From positions 10,181,945 through 10,245,944 of the forward strand of contig NZ_CP011125.1 in the NCBI RefSeq assembly GCF_000737325.1: a stretch of 64,000 nt of DNA. The letters run 5' to 3'. The notes below the pieces were generated by a model. It had not been told where the DNA came from and ran no database searches. It saw only the letters and a list, made by a program, of their open reading frames with translations. This stretch comes from Sandaracinus amylolyticus. GTDB taxonomy: Bacteria > Myxococcota_A > Polyangia > Polyangiales > Sandaracinaceae. Position numbers and translations under genes: made by a program. Numbering within the stretch: position 1 is the stretch's first letter; each line of letters begins with the position of its first letter. Shown piece after piece: positions 26,889 through 31,513 of this stretch.

Positions 26889-26934
26889 GGTCACGACGAG
26901 AACGCTCGCGGGCACTCGTACGTCGCAGAGGTTT

Positions 26935-28989
26935 ATGCTCGACGACGTGCGCAGGATCGGGGGGCGGCTCGCGGCGTTGGGGATCGTCGCGCTGATCGCG
27001 TCGTGTGGGAGCGCGCTGGCGCGACGCAACGGCGGACCGGTCGCGCCATTGCCCGACGATCACTCGCTGCGCGGCGACGCGCAGGGCGGTGAGTCGAGCG
27101 ACGGCGCGCAGAGCACCGCCGAGGGGCGCCTCGAGTCTGCGCATCGCATCGACGACGCGAGCACGTGGGCACGGCTCGCGGCGCGTCCCGCGTCGAGCGC
27201 GGTCGCGCGCACCGAGGTCGTGAAGTTCCTCGTCGACGTCGCCGAGGGCCGGACCGTCTGGTTCATCGACACGCAGCGCTGGGGCATCCATTACGAGTTC
27301 GCGCGCGATCATCTCTCGACCGAACAGCATCCCGTCGGGCGCCAGCCCGCCGATCACCAGATGTTCAACGTCCGCGAGTACCGCCGTCCCGAGCGCCGCT
27401 TCGAGCTCGGCACGATCGTGCACTACCTCGACAGCGACATCTGGACCGTCGAGCTCGTCGGGGGCGACACGCTGCCCGGCGATCGCATCGTCGCGCTCTT
27501 CGAGCAGCTGCGCGGCGCGTTGTGGATCGGCGATCGTCTCCGATTCCGCCCGATGTCGCCGCTGCACGACCGGTCGATCGCGAGCGTGCGCGCGCAGCTG
27601 CCGATCGCGACCGCGGACGAGGTGTTCGCGGGCGTGCGCTACCAGCCGCTCACCGATGGTCCGGCGTTCGGCACGCTGCGCGTCGTGCGCGGCGCGCTCG
27701 ATCCCAGCACGGTGCGCCCCGATCAGATCCTCGTGCTCGAGCAGCTGCCCGACGAGATCCCGGTCGTGAGCGGCGTGATCAGCGCGCAGCTCCAGGCCCC
27801 GCTCGGGCACGTCGCCATCCTCTGCGCGACCCGCGGCACGCCGAACATGGGGCTTCGCGGCGCGCTCGATCATCCCGACGTGCAGCGGCTCGACGGGCGG
27901 CTCGTGCAGCTCGTGATCGGCCCGCAGGAGTTCGCGATCCGCGAGGCCACGCTCGCGCAGGCCGAGGCCGCGTGGGCATCACGCCGTCCCGCCCAGCCGC
28001 AGGTCCCGCGCGTCGATCGGCGCGAGCGACGCCTCGTCGACGTGTGTGATCTCCGGCTGCCCGACGCCGCGTTCGCGGGCGCGAAGGCGTCGCAGCTGGG
28101 CGAGGTGTGCTCGCTGGGCAACATCGACACGCCGGGCGGGTTCGTGGTGCCGGTCGCGCACTACCTCGAGCACCTCGGCGACAGCGGGATCGTGCACGGC
28201 CTGCCGCAGATGCTCGCGGACCCGACGTTCCGCGGCGACGCGACGGTGCGCGCGCGACAGCTCGCGCAGGTGCGCGCGATGATCCAGAGCGCGGGCGTCG
28301 AGCCGCGGCTCGTGCAGGAGGTGCGGCGCCGCATCGCGCACGTCGCGCCCCAGGCGCGGTGGATCCTGCGATCGAGCACGAACGCCGAGGACCTCGCGGG
28401 CTTCACCGGCGCGGGCCTCTATCGCAGCGTCGTGGTGAGCGCGGGCGCGAGCGAGCAGGAGATCGCGAACGCGCTGCGCGAGGTGTGGTCGAGCGTGTGG
28501 CTGCTCGGCGCGTACGAGGAGCGCGAGTGGTATCGCGTCGATCACCGCAGCGTCGGGATGGCGATCCTCGCGCAGCCCTTCGTCGACGGTGCGAGCGCGA
28601 ACGGCGTCGCGATCACCGCGAACCCGTATTACGAGGCGCGCCCCGGGTTCTTCGTGAACGCGCAGGTGCTCGGCGGGAGCGTGACCGGCGCGGCGGGCGA
28701 GGAGATCCCCGAGCAGCACATGATCTACACGTACGCCGGCCCGCTCGAGACCGAGCTCCTCGCGCGCAGCTCGCGGAGCCCCGGCGCGCTCTTGCTCGAC
28801 GACGCGGCGATCACCGCGCTGCACGAGCGCCTCGCGCGCATCCACGCGCACTTCGTCGGCGGAGAGCGGCCCCGCTGGGCGGCGCCGGTGAACGCGGTGG
28901 ACGTCGAGTTCCTGCTCGCCGGCGGGCGCATCGTGATCGTCCAGGCGCGCCCCTTCGTCGTGCGCTGGGGCCCGGGACAGACGTTCTAG
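26935..28989 (+). CDS. Lipoprotein with swivel-His and PEP/glucan dikinase ATP-binding domain
   Basis: This 684-residue protein has a lipoprotein-type signal (GRLAALGIVALIASC), so it should be exported. A region near residue 280 (VVSGVISAQLQAPLGHVAILCATRGTPNMG) matches the phosphohistidine swivel domain, with His in PLGHVAILC. The second half matches the ATP-binding domain: FAGAKASQLGEV, WILRSSTNAEDLAGFTGAGLY, GVAITANPYY, and VNAVDVEFLLAGGRIVIVQARPF. In PEP synthase the swivel domain follows the ATP domain; here it precedes it, as in glucan water dikinases. RSSTNAEDLAGFTGAGLY also reads like the GWD motif. That an ATP-using fold carries an export signal is odd. ATG 26935 follows gcagagg. It converges with the next gene, overlapping by 4 bp (CTAG). 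Confidence 0.83.
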   Translation: MLDDVRRIGGRLAALGIVALIASCGSALARRNGGPVAPLPDDHSLRGDAQGGESSDGAQSTAEGRLESAHRIDDASTWARLAARPASSAVARTEVVKFLVDVAEGRTVWFIDTQRWGIHYEFARDHLSTEQHPVGRQPADHQMFNVREYRRPERRFELGTIVHYLDSDIWTVELVGGDTLPGDRIVALFEQLRGALWIGDRLRFRPMSPLHDRSIASVRAQLPIATADEVFAGVRYQPLTDGPAFGTLRVVRGALDPSTVRPDQILVLEQLPDEIPVVSGVISAQLQAPLGHVAILCATRGTPNMGLRGALDHPDVQRLDGRLVQLVIGPQEFAIREATLAQAEAAWASRRPAQPQVPRVDRRERRLVDVCDLRLPDAAFAGAKASQLGEVCSLGNIDTPGGFVVPVAHYLEHLGDSGIVHGLPQMLADPTFRGDATVRARQLAQVRAMIQSAGVEPRLVQEVRRRIAHVAPQARWILRSSTNAEDLAGFTGAGLYRSVVVSAGASEQEIANALREVWSSVWLLGAYEEREWYRVDHRSVGMAILAQPFVDGASANGVAITANPYYEARPGFFVNAQVLGGSVTGAAGEEIPEQHMIYTYAGPLETELLARSSRSPGALLLDDAAITALHERLARIHAHFVGGERPRWAAPVNAVDVEFLLAGGRIVIVQARPFVVRWGPGQTF

Positions 28990-29864
28990 TTCATGACGCG
29001 CACGCGCAGCTCGACGCGACCGCACCCGAACGAGCCGCGGTTCTGGCTGTCGAGCAGCAGGTAGTACGTGCCGGGGTCGAGCTCGAGCTCGAGGCGCGAC
29101 TGGCGCGGCTGGCGCCCCGACTCGCACGGAGTCGCCTTCAGATCGTCGTCGGCGTCGGCGCACGCGACGTCGTTCGCGCACTCGATCTCGCTCTGCACGT
29201 CACCACAGCGGCGCAGCAGCGAGAGCACCGTGTCGACCCCGCCCGGGCCGTCGACGTCGCGCAGATCGAGGCGCAGCCGACGTCGCTGCGACACGAACAG
29301 GCGCACCTGCGCGTCCTCGCCGTTGCTCGCCGCGCCCTCGCACTGGTCGGCGCGCACGCGGTGATCGTCGGTGCGCCCGCAGAGATCGATCGTGTACGAG
29401 CCCTCGTCGACGATCTCGCCGCTCCACACGCACGACGGAGCTTCGGTCACGCACGCGCCCTCGCTGCATCCGTGCTCGCACGTCGTGGGCGCTTCGTGCG
29501 CGCCGTCCGCGTCGCACGTGTAGAGCACGTCGCCGTCGCAGCGCGTCCGCAGCGGCTCGCAGGTGCGCGCGACGCACGTCGCATCGCCGTCGGTCATCGC
29601 GCATCGCGCGCCGCGCGGCGCGCAGTCCTCCTCGACGGTGCTCGTCCCCACGCACCGGATCGCGACGGTGTCCGCGCATCGCGGCACGCACGCGCCGACC
29701 ACGCCTGCGTCACCGGCGCCCGCGTCGATCGCGCTCGCATCGCGCGAGGCGCCCGCGAAGCTCACGCGCTCGAGCGAGCAACCCCCCCAGAGGATGCTCG
29801 CGCCCGAGAGCACCACCGTCGCGGCGATGCTCCCCCATACCGCTCGCCCGCCCACGAAGCGCAC
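28986..29864 (-). CDS. Cys-rich lipoprotein with C-terminal beta domain
   Basis: This 292-residue protein has a lipoprotein signal (SIAATVVLSGASILWGGC), then a short Asp/Ala/Gly linker (DASAIDAGAGDAG). Residues 55-145 are Cys-rich (CVPRCADTVAIRCVG, CEPLRTRCDGDVLYTCDADG, CEHGCSEGACV), similar to other surface lipoproteins here. The last 120 residues (RLFVSQRRRLRLDLRDVDG, ELDPGTYYLLLDSQ) resemble a peptidase-associated pre-peptidase-type beta-sandwich. No catalytic residue is seen. The start is GTG 29864; no better ATG was found. Its TAG stop is inside the CTAG shared with the convergent dikinase gene. Confidence 0.82.
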   Translation of the reverse strand: MRFVGGRAVWGSIAATVVLSGASILWGGCSLERVSFAGASRDASAIDAGAGDAGVVGACVPRCADTVAIRCVGTSTVEEDCAPRGARCAMTDGDATCVARTCEPLRTRCDGDVLYTCDADGAHEAPTTCEHGCSEGACVTEAPSCVWSGEIVDEGSYTIDLCGRTDDHRVRADQCEGAASNGEDAQVRLFVSQRRRLRLDLRDVDGPGGVDTVLSLLRRCGDVQSEIECANDVACADADDDLKATPCESGRQPRQSRLELELDPGTYYLLLDSQNRGSFGCGRVELRVRVMN

Positions 29865-29918: not shown

Positions 29919-30785
29919 TTAACCCGCGAGCACCGCGGCCATCGCCCGCGCATCGGGCCATCGGTGCGCGACGTCGGGCTCGAGCGCGCCGTCGATCGCG
30001 CGCGCGAGCGCGTCGGGCACATCGGCGCGGACCTCGCGAATGCGCGGCGGACGGCTCGTGACGATGCGCATCAGCAGCATCGGGAGGCTCGGCTCCTGGA
30101 AGTGGGTGCGCCCGGTCGCGGCATGGAAGAGCGTCGCGCCCGCGCCCCACAGATCGGTGCGCGCATCGACGGGCAGCGCGCGCGCCTGCTCGGGCGCCAT
30201 GTACGTCGGCGTGCCGATCGCGGTGCCCGGCTTGGTGAGGATGCCGCTGCGATCGACGCTCTGGAGGTTCTTCGCGACGCCGAAGTCGAGCAGCCGCACG
30301 CCGAGCGTGCCCTTCTCGCGCACGAGGAACACGTTCTCGGGCTTCACGTCGCGATGCACGATGTGCACGTCGTGCGCGGCCGCGAGCACGTCGCAGAGCT
30401 GCACGCCGATCGTGGTGACGTCGTCGAGCGTGAGGTCCTTCGCGCGGATCGCCTCGTCGAGCGAGCGACCCTCGAGCAGCTCGTTGACGATGTACGGGCG
30501 ACCGTCCTCGAGCGTGCCCGCGTCGAGCACCTGCGGGATGCCGGGATGTCCGACCGCCGCGGCCGCGCGCGCCTCGCGCAGGAAGCGCCGCACCGCCTCG
30601 GGCGCGGCCGTGAGGTGCGGGTGCATCGCCTTCAGCGCGACGCTGCGATCGGTGTAGCGATGGATCGCCTCGTAGACGGCGCCGCTCGCGCCGACGCCGA
30701 GCAATCGCTGGAGCTCGTAGCGATCGGCGACGACCTGCCCGACGCGGCCCTGCGCGACCTCGTCGATCGTCTTCGACGTCGTCAT
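29919..30785 (-). CDS. Ser/Thr protein kinase (Hanks type)
   Basis: This 288-residue kinase is essentially a bare catalytic domain. The glycine-rich loop is LLGVGASGAVYEA, the ATP-binding Lys is in VALKAMHPHL, the catalytic loop is IVHRDVKPENVFL, the metal-binding DFG is LLDFGVAKN, and the activation segment ends GTPTYMAPEQA. All key residues are intact. There is no transmembrane tail, so it should be cytoplasmic or bound to a partner. It is divergent from the Tat lipoprotein gene, with 155 bp between starts that contain a CGTCCC/GGGACG hairpin. ATG 30785 is preferred; ATG 30800 adds five residues. Substrates are unknown. Confidence 0.93.
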   Translation of the reverse strand: MTTSKTIDEVAQGRVGQVVADRYELQRLLGVGASGAVYEAIHRYTDRSVALKAMHPHLTAAPEAVRRFLREARAAAAVGHPGIPQVLDAGTLEDGRPYIVNELLEGRSLDEAIRAKDLTLDDVTTIGVQLCDVLAAAHDVHIVHRDVKPENVFLVREKGTLGVRLLDFGVAKNLQSVDRSGILTKPGTAIGTPTYMAPEQARALPVDARTDLWGAGATLFHAATGRTHFQEPSLPMLLMRIVTSRPPRIREVRADVPDALARAIDGALEPDVAHRWPDARAMAAVLAG

Positions 30786-30940
30786 GGACGGGGAGAGCAT
30801 AGCGGCGCGCCTCGTAGCATGGGAGTCGCCTCGACCGCTGCGGTCGTGAGAGAATCTGCCGGGGGCCGGGCGCGTCCCTACGGGACGCCCGGGCGAGAAC
30901 ACGAGAGCCGGGCAGGCTTTCCATAGGAGTCGTGCCGCGC

Positions 30941-31513
30941 ATGTCCGACAAGAAGACTGATCCCGAGGTCGCGAAGAAGACGCTCACGCTCGACGATGCC
31001 GACATCGTCTCGGAGCGGAGCGGATCGGAAGAGCCCGCACCCGTCACGCGCCGCTCGATGCTGGGCGTGATCGGCGTGCTCGCCGGAGGCGCCGCGGCCG
31101 CGGTGCTCCCGGGATGCGTGGTGCGACGGCGGCCGGTCGTGTACGCGCAGGCGCCCGCGGCGCCCCCCGGGGCGACGGTGGTGGTGCAGGCGCCGCAGGG
31201 CCGTTATCGCACCGGCGTGACCGACAGCGACGGCGGCGCGTACGCGGATCCCGCGGGCTACGGGCGCGGCCAGCAACGCCAGGCGTACACCGGGCTGACC
31301 GACAGCGACGGGGGCGCGTACGCGGATCCCGCGGGCTACGGGCGCGGCGTGTACGGGCGGACCAGCGGGATCACCGACAGCGACGGCGGGCCGTACGCGG
31401 ATCCCGCGGGCAACGGACGCGGCACCGGGCGCGTCGGGTACACGGGGATCACGGACAGCGACGGCGGGCCGTATGCCGATCCGGCGGGGCAGGGTCGCGG
31501 TCGCTGGCGCTGA
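30941..31513 (+). CDS. Tat-exported lipoprotein with four DSDGG repeats
   Basis: This 190-residue protein has an acidic N-terminus of about 35 residues, then a Tat-type signal with a lipobox: TRRSMLGVIGVLAGGAAAA and LPGC. The mature part is almost wholly four repeats of 25-26 residues, each containing TDSDGG(A/P)YADPAG, then a Gly/Arg-rich spacer. The Asp-rich core could bind calcium, but this is inference. The repeats lie at 31220-31501 with starts 75-78 bp apart. A Tat signal fits folding before export. ATG 30941 was chosen; GTG 30932 is close to AGGAG (30925-30929). It is divergent from the kinase gene, so shared regulation is possible. Confidence 0.85.
   Translation: MSDKKTDPEVAKKTLTLDDADIVSERSGSEEPAPVTRRSMLGVIGVLAGGAAAAVLPGCVVRRRPVVYAQAPAAPPGATVVVQAPQGRYRTGVTDSDGGAYADPAGYGRGQQRQAYTGLTDSDGGAYADPAGYGRGVYGRTSGITDSDGGPYADPAGNGRGTGRVGYTGITDSDGGPYADPAGQGRGRWR
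31220..31501 (+). repeat. Four in-frame repeats of about 26 codons
   Basis: Units begin at 31220, 31298, 31373 and 31451, and each encodes TDSDGG-x-YADPAG-x-GRG. Units 1 and 2 read GAYADPAGYG and units 3 and 4 read GPYADPAG(N/Q)G, so the array grew by duplication of pairs. The frame is kept throughout. Confidence 0.9.

Follow-up and report, generated by a model that had tools for sequence, protein, structure and literature searches.

In the current analysis we have characterised a gene of Sandaracinus amylolyticus whose product, P0001, is predicted to be an exported dikinase-like lipoprotein. The window, that is the whole stretch of 64,000 nucleotides analysed, corresponds to positions 10181945-10245944 of a genome that consists of one contig of 10,327,335 bases. 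The frame at 26935-28989 is open and begins with an ATG at 26935, in agreement with the coordinates given in the preliminary description of the locus. The mechanical ORF reaches further upstream than this codon. The ATG at 26935 is taken as the start on the basis of the AGAGG just 5' to it and of the conservation of the start codon in a 92% identical orthologue from the same genus (L058), which likewise has the signal and its Cys. The features of the gene, with positions in the window, are as follows.

26935..28989, + strand: gene for the predicted exported dikinase-like lipoprotein P0001, 684 residues, stop codon included (ORF and Pfam)
26927..26931, + strand: AGAGG, possible ribosome-binding site, read from the sequence and scored as RBS-like, with a short spacing of 3 bases to the ATG
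26935..27003, + strand: predicted signal peptide, residues 1-23 (sequence rule; orthologue L058)
27004..27006, + strand: Cys24 of the lipobox, the predicted site of lipid attachment (81 of the 87 aligned members have C here, 5 have a gap and 1 has T)
27007..27132, + strand: low-complexity linker, residues 25-66 (pLDDT <50 over residues 22-63; boundaries by eye)
27133..27615, + strand: N-domain, residues 67-227, proposed to be acceptor-binding (without Pfam match)
27289..27291, + strand: His119 of the N-domain, invariant (87/87)
27616..27984, + strand: swivel domain of the phosphohistidine type, residues 228-350 (aligned with the RPH swivel at Z 11.8 and with Enzyme I at Z 11.6)
27808..27810, + strand: His292, predicted phosphorylated swivel histidine (87/87)
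28021..28968, + strand: ATP-grasp (PPDK_N) domain, residues 363-678 (PF01326, E 8.4e-28; structure alignments)
28084..28086, + strand: Lys384, aligned with RPH Lys22 (87/87)
28369..28371, + strand: Arg479, aligned with RPH Arg117 (87/87)
28906..28908, + strand: Glu658, aligned with RPH Glu297, a Mg ligand (84 E and 3 D of 87)
28942..28950, + strand: Gln670 and Arg672 of the QARP motif (87/87 each)

The protein thus comprises a lipoprotein-type signal, an N-domain, a swivel domain and then an ATP-grasp domain of the PPDK/PEP-synthase type. PPDK_N is the sole Pfam domain assigned to P0001 (residues 381-675, E 8.4e-28, 98 bits against a cut-off of 27) and is matched by all 33 family members scanned (E<=1). 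A profile of 33 relatives matches PEP synthase and RPH chains across the ATP domain. AlphaFold2 models were built from eight sequences and are of middling confidence, with a mean pLDDT of 73.2 for the whole protein and 76.7 for a second model covering residues 62-366. Residues 363-678 of the model align with residues 1-317 of the rifampin phosphotransferase RPH (Z 27.8, rmsd 2.6, 287 aligned), and the ATP-grasp part also with PEP synthase 2ols (Z 26.5, rmsd 2.4, 279 aligned) and PPDK 1dik (Z 20.9, rmsd 3.0, 239 aligned). Residues 228-338 align with the RPH swivel (5hv1, 742-867; Z 11.8, rmsd 2.6, 101 aligned) and the swivel model with Enzyme I 2wqd (Z 11.6, rmsd 3.6, 112 aligned); a pyruvate kinase, by its C-terminal part, heads the swivel list at Z 11.9, level with the RPH and Enzyme I rows. 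Since the RPH alignments place the swivel at residues 228-338 and the ATP domain at 363-678, the swivel precedes the ATP-grasp domain, and the order proposed in the preliminary description is borne out by Pfam and the structure alignments together. The N-domain has no Pfam match in P0001 or in the 33 members, and a Foldseek search with the second model gave no match at E<=0.001. The VIA-align rows for this second model spanned model residues 170-292 only and barely covered the N-domain.

Residue conservation has been counted over 87 aligned members that were not dereplicated, a few of which represent one genome reached twice. His119, Leu290, His292, Lys384, Arg479, Ser481, Asn483, Glu485, Asp486, Gly494, Glu529, Arg530, Gln670 and Arg672 are invariant in all 87, and Asp656 and Glu658 are each kept in 84, the other three carrying the alternative acid. 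The swivel histidine and the ATP ligands, whose retention had earlier been singled out as a point to check, are therefore intact (His292, Lys384, Arg479, Gln670 and Arg672). In RPH, exchange of Lys22 for Ala leaves no activity, rifampin phosphorylation depends on Arg117 and Thr136, which bind the alpha-phosphate, and Glu297 can be dispensed with (PMC4844700). By count along the alignment, Ser498 of P0001 occupies the position of RPH Thr136. In domains of PEP synthase, PPDK and the HpeH type a T/SXXGGXXXH motif has been reported (PMC12167813); the swivel consensus of the P0001 family, (S/T)xxxQxPLxH, has no such GG.

Comparison with the L058 orthologue gave dN 0.016 and dS 0.243 for the swivel, 0.035 and 0.225 for the ATP domain and 0.054 and 0.210 for the N-domain, values that point to strong purifying selection on the domains, with the swivel the most constrained. 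The signal, over 24 codons only, has dN 0.160 and dS 0.137; it appears to drift as signals do while retaining its form.

The signal of P0001, MLDDVRRIGGRLAALGIVALIAS followed directly by C, has a lipobox. Lipoboxes were called by a sequence rule of our own rather than by SignalP, with codon-shuffled sequences as controls. The strict rule is passed by 60 of the 87 members as against 0-3 in shuffles (20 runs). A looser rule applied to a longer upstream stretch is passed by 76/87, as against 0-4/87 when the same stretch is codon-shuffled (10 shuffles), so the lipobox signals are not a product of chance and the lipoprotein-type signal previously noted ahead of both domains is upheld. Among the 11 members failing the looser rule, eight are lipobox-like by eye (L067, L055, L039, L076, L043, L046, L102 and L112), L003 and L115 look Sec type I by eye and L073 is cut by the contig end. 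The 60 strict-signal members have a mean net charge of +1.77 in the n-region and of -2.15 in the 15 residues after the Cys, and among the residues at their +2 position are Gly (20), Ala (10), Asp (8) and Lys (1). Export by the Tat route was considered and dropped, RR being found in the n-region of only 9 of these 60.

In Myxococcus xanthus Lys occupies +2 in 8 of 12 inner-membrane lipoproteins, and FibA requires Ala at +7 to reach the matrix (PMC3222651). With Gly at +2 and Arg at +7, P0001 carries neither of these sorting signals, and the Gly at +2 makes residence in the outer membrane or at the surface likelier than retention in the inner membrane.

Two Cys columns that precede the N-domain are frequent in the family (67/87 and 56/87) and absent from P0001. 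They are what a disulphide would need and may be counted in favour of export. In another phylum, four members bear Sec signals of ordinary appearance that lack a lipobox; by eye, their His, Lys, Arg, Glu, Gln and Arg residues are retained. It is therefore export, and not the lipid anchor, that appears to persist, and these signals are the strongest argument for export as the conserved feature. Lamin tail domains lie between the lipoprotein-type signal and the dikinase part at L061, L072, L102, L104, L107, L109, L112, L113 and L114; Pfam LTD was confirmed in all four scanned (L061, L107, L112 and L114) and the remaining loci were assigned by eye. These fusions bear their own N-terminal signal.

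The family profile is matched by 108 of 282 genomes of the phylum (E<=1e-45), often in several copies, and by 74 of the 192 genomes that are >=90% complete and <=5% contaminated. This count is preferred to an earlier one of 133/282 (E<=1e-10), which takes in ATP-domain-only matches. P0001 is matched in 9 of the 10 genomes of its taxonomic family (E<=1e-10). The S. amylolyticus genome encodes one full-length member and two ATP-domain-only profile matches; another PPDK_N gene is situated at contig positions 4313377-4314396 in a 566-codon frame. The four members with Sec-type signals are from the phylum of genome G290, which carries locus L003; among 194 genomes of that phylum these 4 are the ones with a match (E<=1e-30). 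A plasmid collection gave 20 records with ATP-domain matches only, none covering 80% of the query.

Neighbouring genes were called by a crude script. Among the 142 nearest neighbours of 86 loci the commonest Pfam families, LTD and SGL, occur 4 times each; as no Pfam family exceeds this number, there is no conserved operon that would point to a substrate. BLAST clustering of the neighbours gave small groups, including a secreted-looking protein of 320-370 aa near 5 loci and an outer-membrane-protein-like gene adjoining the dikinase at 2 loci. One of the latter genes (L048:8477-9574) lies directly after the dikinase on the same strand and matches Pfam Porin_O_P (E 4.6e-6); the other (L005:9911-11305), also directly after the dikinase on the same strand, is its BLAST-cluster relative and is without a Pfam match. 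At L047 and L049, whose two genomes belong to a single genus, the dikinase is adjoined on the same strand by a large gene resembling those of Ser/Thr protein kinases. In the window itself, a convergent gene for a Cys-rich lipoprotein-like product without Pfam match (28986-29864, - strand) has a stop that overlaps the end of the dikinase gene. It is followed by a Ser/Thr protein kinase gene (29919-30902, - strand; Pkinase E 1.4e-38) and by a gene for a small protein (30932-31513, + strand) with repeated TDSDGGxYADPAG-type units, without Pfam match and with a twin-arginine-like stretch ahead of a hydrophobic segment.

The preliminary description had likened the domain order to that of the alpha-glucan water dikinase GWD. 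In GWD the swivel domain likewise precedes the ATP domain, and the GWD swivel, like the consensus of the P0001 family, has no GG and shows LSH at the histidine. The conserved catalytic His is shared with GWD and the phosphoglucan water dikinase PWD; P0001 differs from them in being bacterial and lipoprotein-exported, in having another N-domain and in the absence of a Pfam-detectable CBM, and no CBM is present among the Pfam families of the 33 members either. The likeness was judged by this order and by the Pfam profile GWD1_pHisD (PF22973). The profile matches 12 of the 33 members at E<=1, with a best value of 0.0021 that is below the cut-off, and has no match in P0001 itself at E<=1. Across 95 whole genomes there are 4 matches (4/95 genomes) at E<=0.01, none over the cut-off; by eye all 4 are within P0001-family proteins, and 3 of them coincide with places found in the phylum search with P0001. 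No match was found in 14 control genomes. With sub-threshold matches in the family only and none in the controls, the swivel is probably a remote relative of that of GWD. The earlier likening thus stands for the domain order and the weak profile matches and falls short in that no match in the genomes searched reaches the cut-off and no CBM is found by Pfam; by the sequence features tested, P0001 is not a GWD.

The best explanation, to which we give an even chance, is that P0001 is an exported, lipid-anchored dikinase performing extracytoplasmic ATP-driven phosphotransfer to a hydroxyl acceptor. We infer its activity, ATP as the donor, the role of the N-domain and any acceptor as follows. The Sec/lipoprotein signal would carry P0001 across the inner membrane, with Cys24 becoming lipidated. 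Outside the cytoplasm the ATP-grasp domain would bind ATP, and His292 of the swivel would receive the beta-phosphate, with release of AMP and Pi. The swivel would then turn to the N-domain with its invariant His119 and hand the phosphate to a hydroxyl group on an acceptor in the envelope or outside the cell. Neighbouring cells or prey would release the ATP when they lyse, and prey lysis is practised by many myxobacteria. ATP is normally scarce outside the cytoplasm and is not known to reach usable amounts in the periplasm or beyond, which counts against this explanation, as do the lack of a conserved operon, the swivel without GG and the middling confidence of the models. The difficulty raised in the preliminary description, namely how an exported enzyme would be supplied with ATP, is a real one. 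RPH has a Km for ATP of 8.38 uM (PMC4844700), and the use of released ATP would be feasible if the affinity of P0001 resembles it.

Two other readings keep the protein outside; we regard each as improbable. The same exported enzyme might use a donor other than ATP, the histidine being charged from another phosphate compound or the reaction running in reverse on a phosphorylated extracellular substrate. The scarcity of ATP outside cells would favour such a donor, and 4-phosphoacetophenone served HpeH, acting by itself, as phosphate donor for a second phenolic substrate (PMC12167813). The Porin_O_P gene downstream at L048 has been counted on the same side, but the porin link rests on two loci, at one of which (L005) the neighbour is without a Pfam match. 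A non-nucleotide donor would moreover not require the nucleotide ligands of the ATP-grasp domain, and those tested are invariant or nearly so. Alternatively P0001 may be a catalytically retired lipoprotein, a sensor or scavenger that binds a nucleotide or another ligand and has kept the fold without phosphotransfer, as the missing GG of the swivel could suggest. Such a protein would not need a supply of ATP that turns over. The catalytic His and ATP ligands are, however, invariant in the 87 members and by eye present in the four of the other phylum, and constraint is strongest in the swivel, so that the earlier suggestion of a binding protein is not favoured.

Two further readings are, in our judgement, more improbable still, and equally so. 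In one the protein is cytoplasmic or faces the cytoplasm, its N-terminus being a non-working signal or an anchor that stays uncleaved and leaves the body inside. Such an enzyme would have ATP at hand, export is predicted from sequence only, and the charge balance of P0001 itself is ambiguous, with RR on both sides of the hydrophobic stretch. This orientation, which the preliminary description had allowed for, is nevertheless disfavoured by the lipobox Cys in 81/87 members, by signals far above shuffles, by the family charge bias of the N-in/C-out type, with a positive n-region and an acidic stretch after the Cys, by the lamin-tail-domain fusions after the signal and by the Sec-type signals in another phylum. 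In the other, P0001 is a bacterial GWD relative acting on an extracellular alpha-glucan and aiding starch breakdown. S. amylolyticus is a starch-degrading myxobacterium with 15 GH13 enzymes, and the GWD-like order and the GWD1_pHisD matches confined to the family agree with this role. Against it, Pfam detects no carbohydrate-binding domain, and no amylase is found among the seven window neighbours scanned or among the 25 commonest neighbour families of the relatives. The spread over 108/282 genomes of the phylum also indicates that the family is not tied to this starch degrader.

In a wider sense, P0001 could represent a family of extracytoplasmic dikinases of predatory and related bacteria that use outside ATP, such as that spilled when prey or kin lyse, in the phosphorylation of surface glycans, proteins or antibiotics, a proposal which we advance tentatively and rate somewhat below the mechanism itself. 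If true, it would mean ATP-driven phosphohistidine chemistry outside the cytoplasm. A large family in which the catalytic residues are kept and the protein is exported implies either phosphotransfer from external ATP or a new donor, and knowing which of the two applies would assign a function to a family represented in over a third of the sampled genomes of a predator-rich phylum.

To our knowledge the dikinases of this superfamily are cytoplasmic or plastid enzymes, and the open-access literature searched, preprints aside, yielded no paper that describes such an exported dikinase. RPH resembles P0001 in its ATP-grasp and swivel domains, in the equivalents of Lys22, Arg117 and Glu297 and in a three-domain plan with a separate acceptor domain, a role proposed for the N-domain in P0001. 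It differs in its order of ATP, rifampin-binding and swivel domains (PMC4844700), and no similarity to the rifampin-binding domain was found in P0001; an export signal is not mentioned in the passages of PMC4844700 consulted. The NCBIfam model RIF_Ptrans_rph gives P0001 68.5 bits against a cut-off of 999, over the ATP part only. The phenol dikinases HpeHI, PpsAB and CreHI share the ATP-grasp part (HpeI, 9goj, Z 20.5, rmsd 5.4) and act with an ATP-grasp domain and a His swivel on small hydroxyl compounds. They differ in being two separate proteins of catabolic role, with the swivel at the C-terminus of HpeH, and the term 'signal peptide' occurs 0 times in the text of PMC12167813.

PEP synthase and PPDK share the PPDK_N ATP-grasp domain and the His swivel chemistry. 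Their ATP domain comes first, the swivel second and a PEP-binding barrel third, whereas P0001 has the swivel and the ATP domain reversed with respect to RPH, PPDK and PEP synthase alike; the earlier statement that its order is unlike that of PEP synthase is correct. P0001 has no Pfam match to the PEP-binding C-terminal domain, and the best NCBIfam PEP synthase score is 75.1 bits against a cut-off of 598, again over the ATP part only. CotH-type kinases, which have a protein-kinase-like fold, are met outside the cytoplasm, sometimes beside lamin tail domains. These secreted kinases share with the P0001 family the predicted extracytoplasmic setting and the link to lamin tail domains and differ from it in fold.
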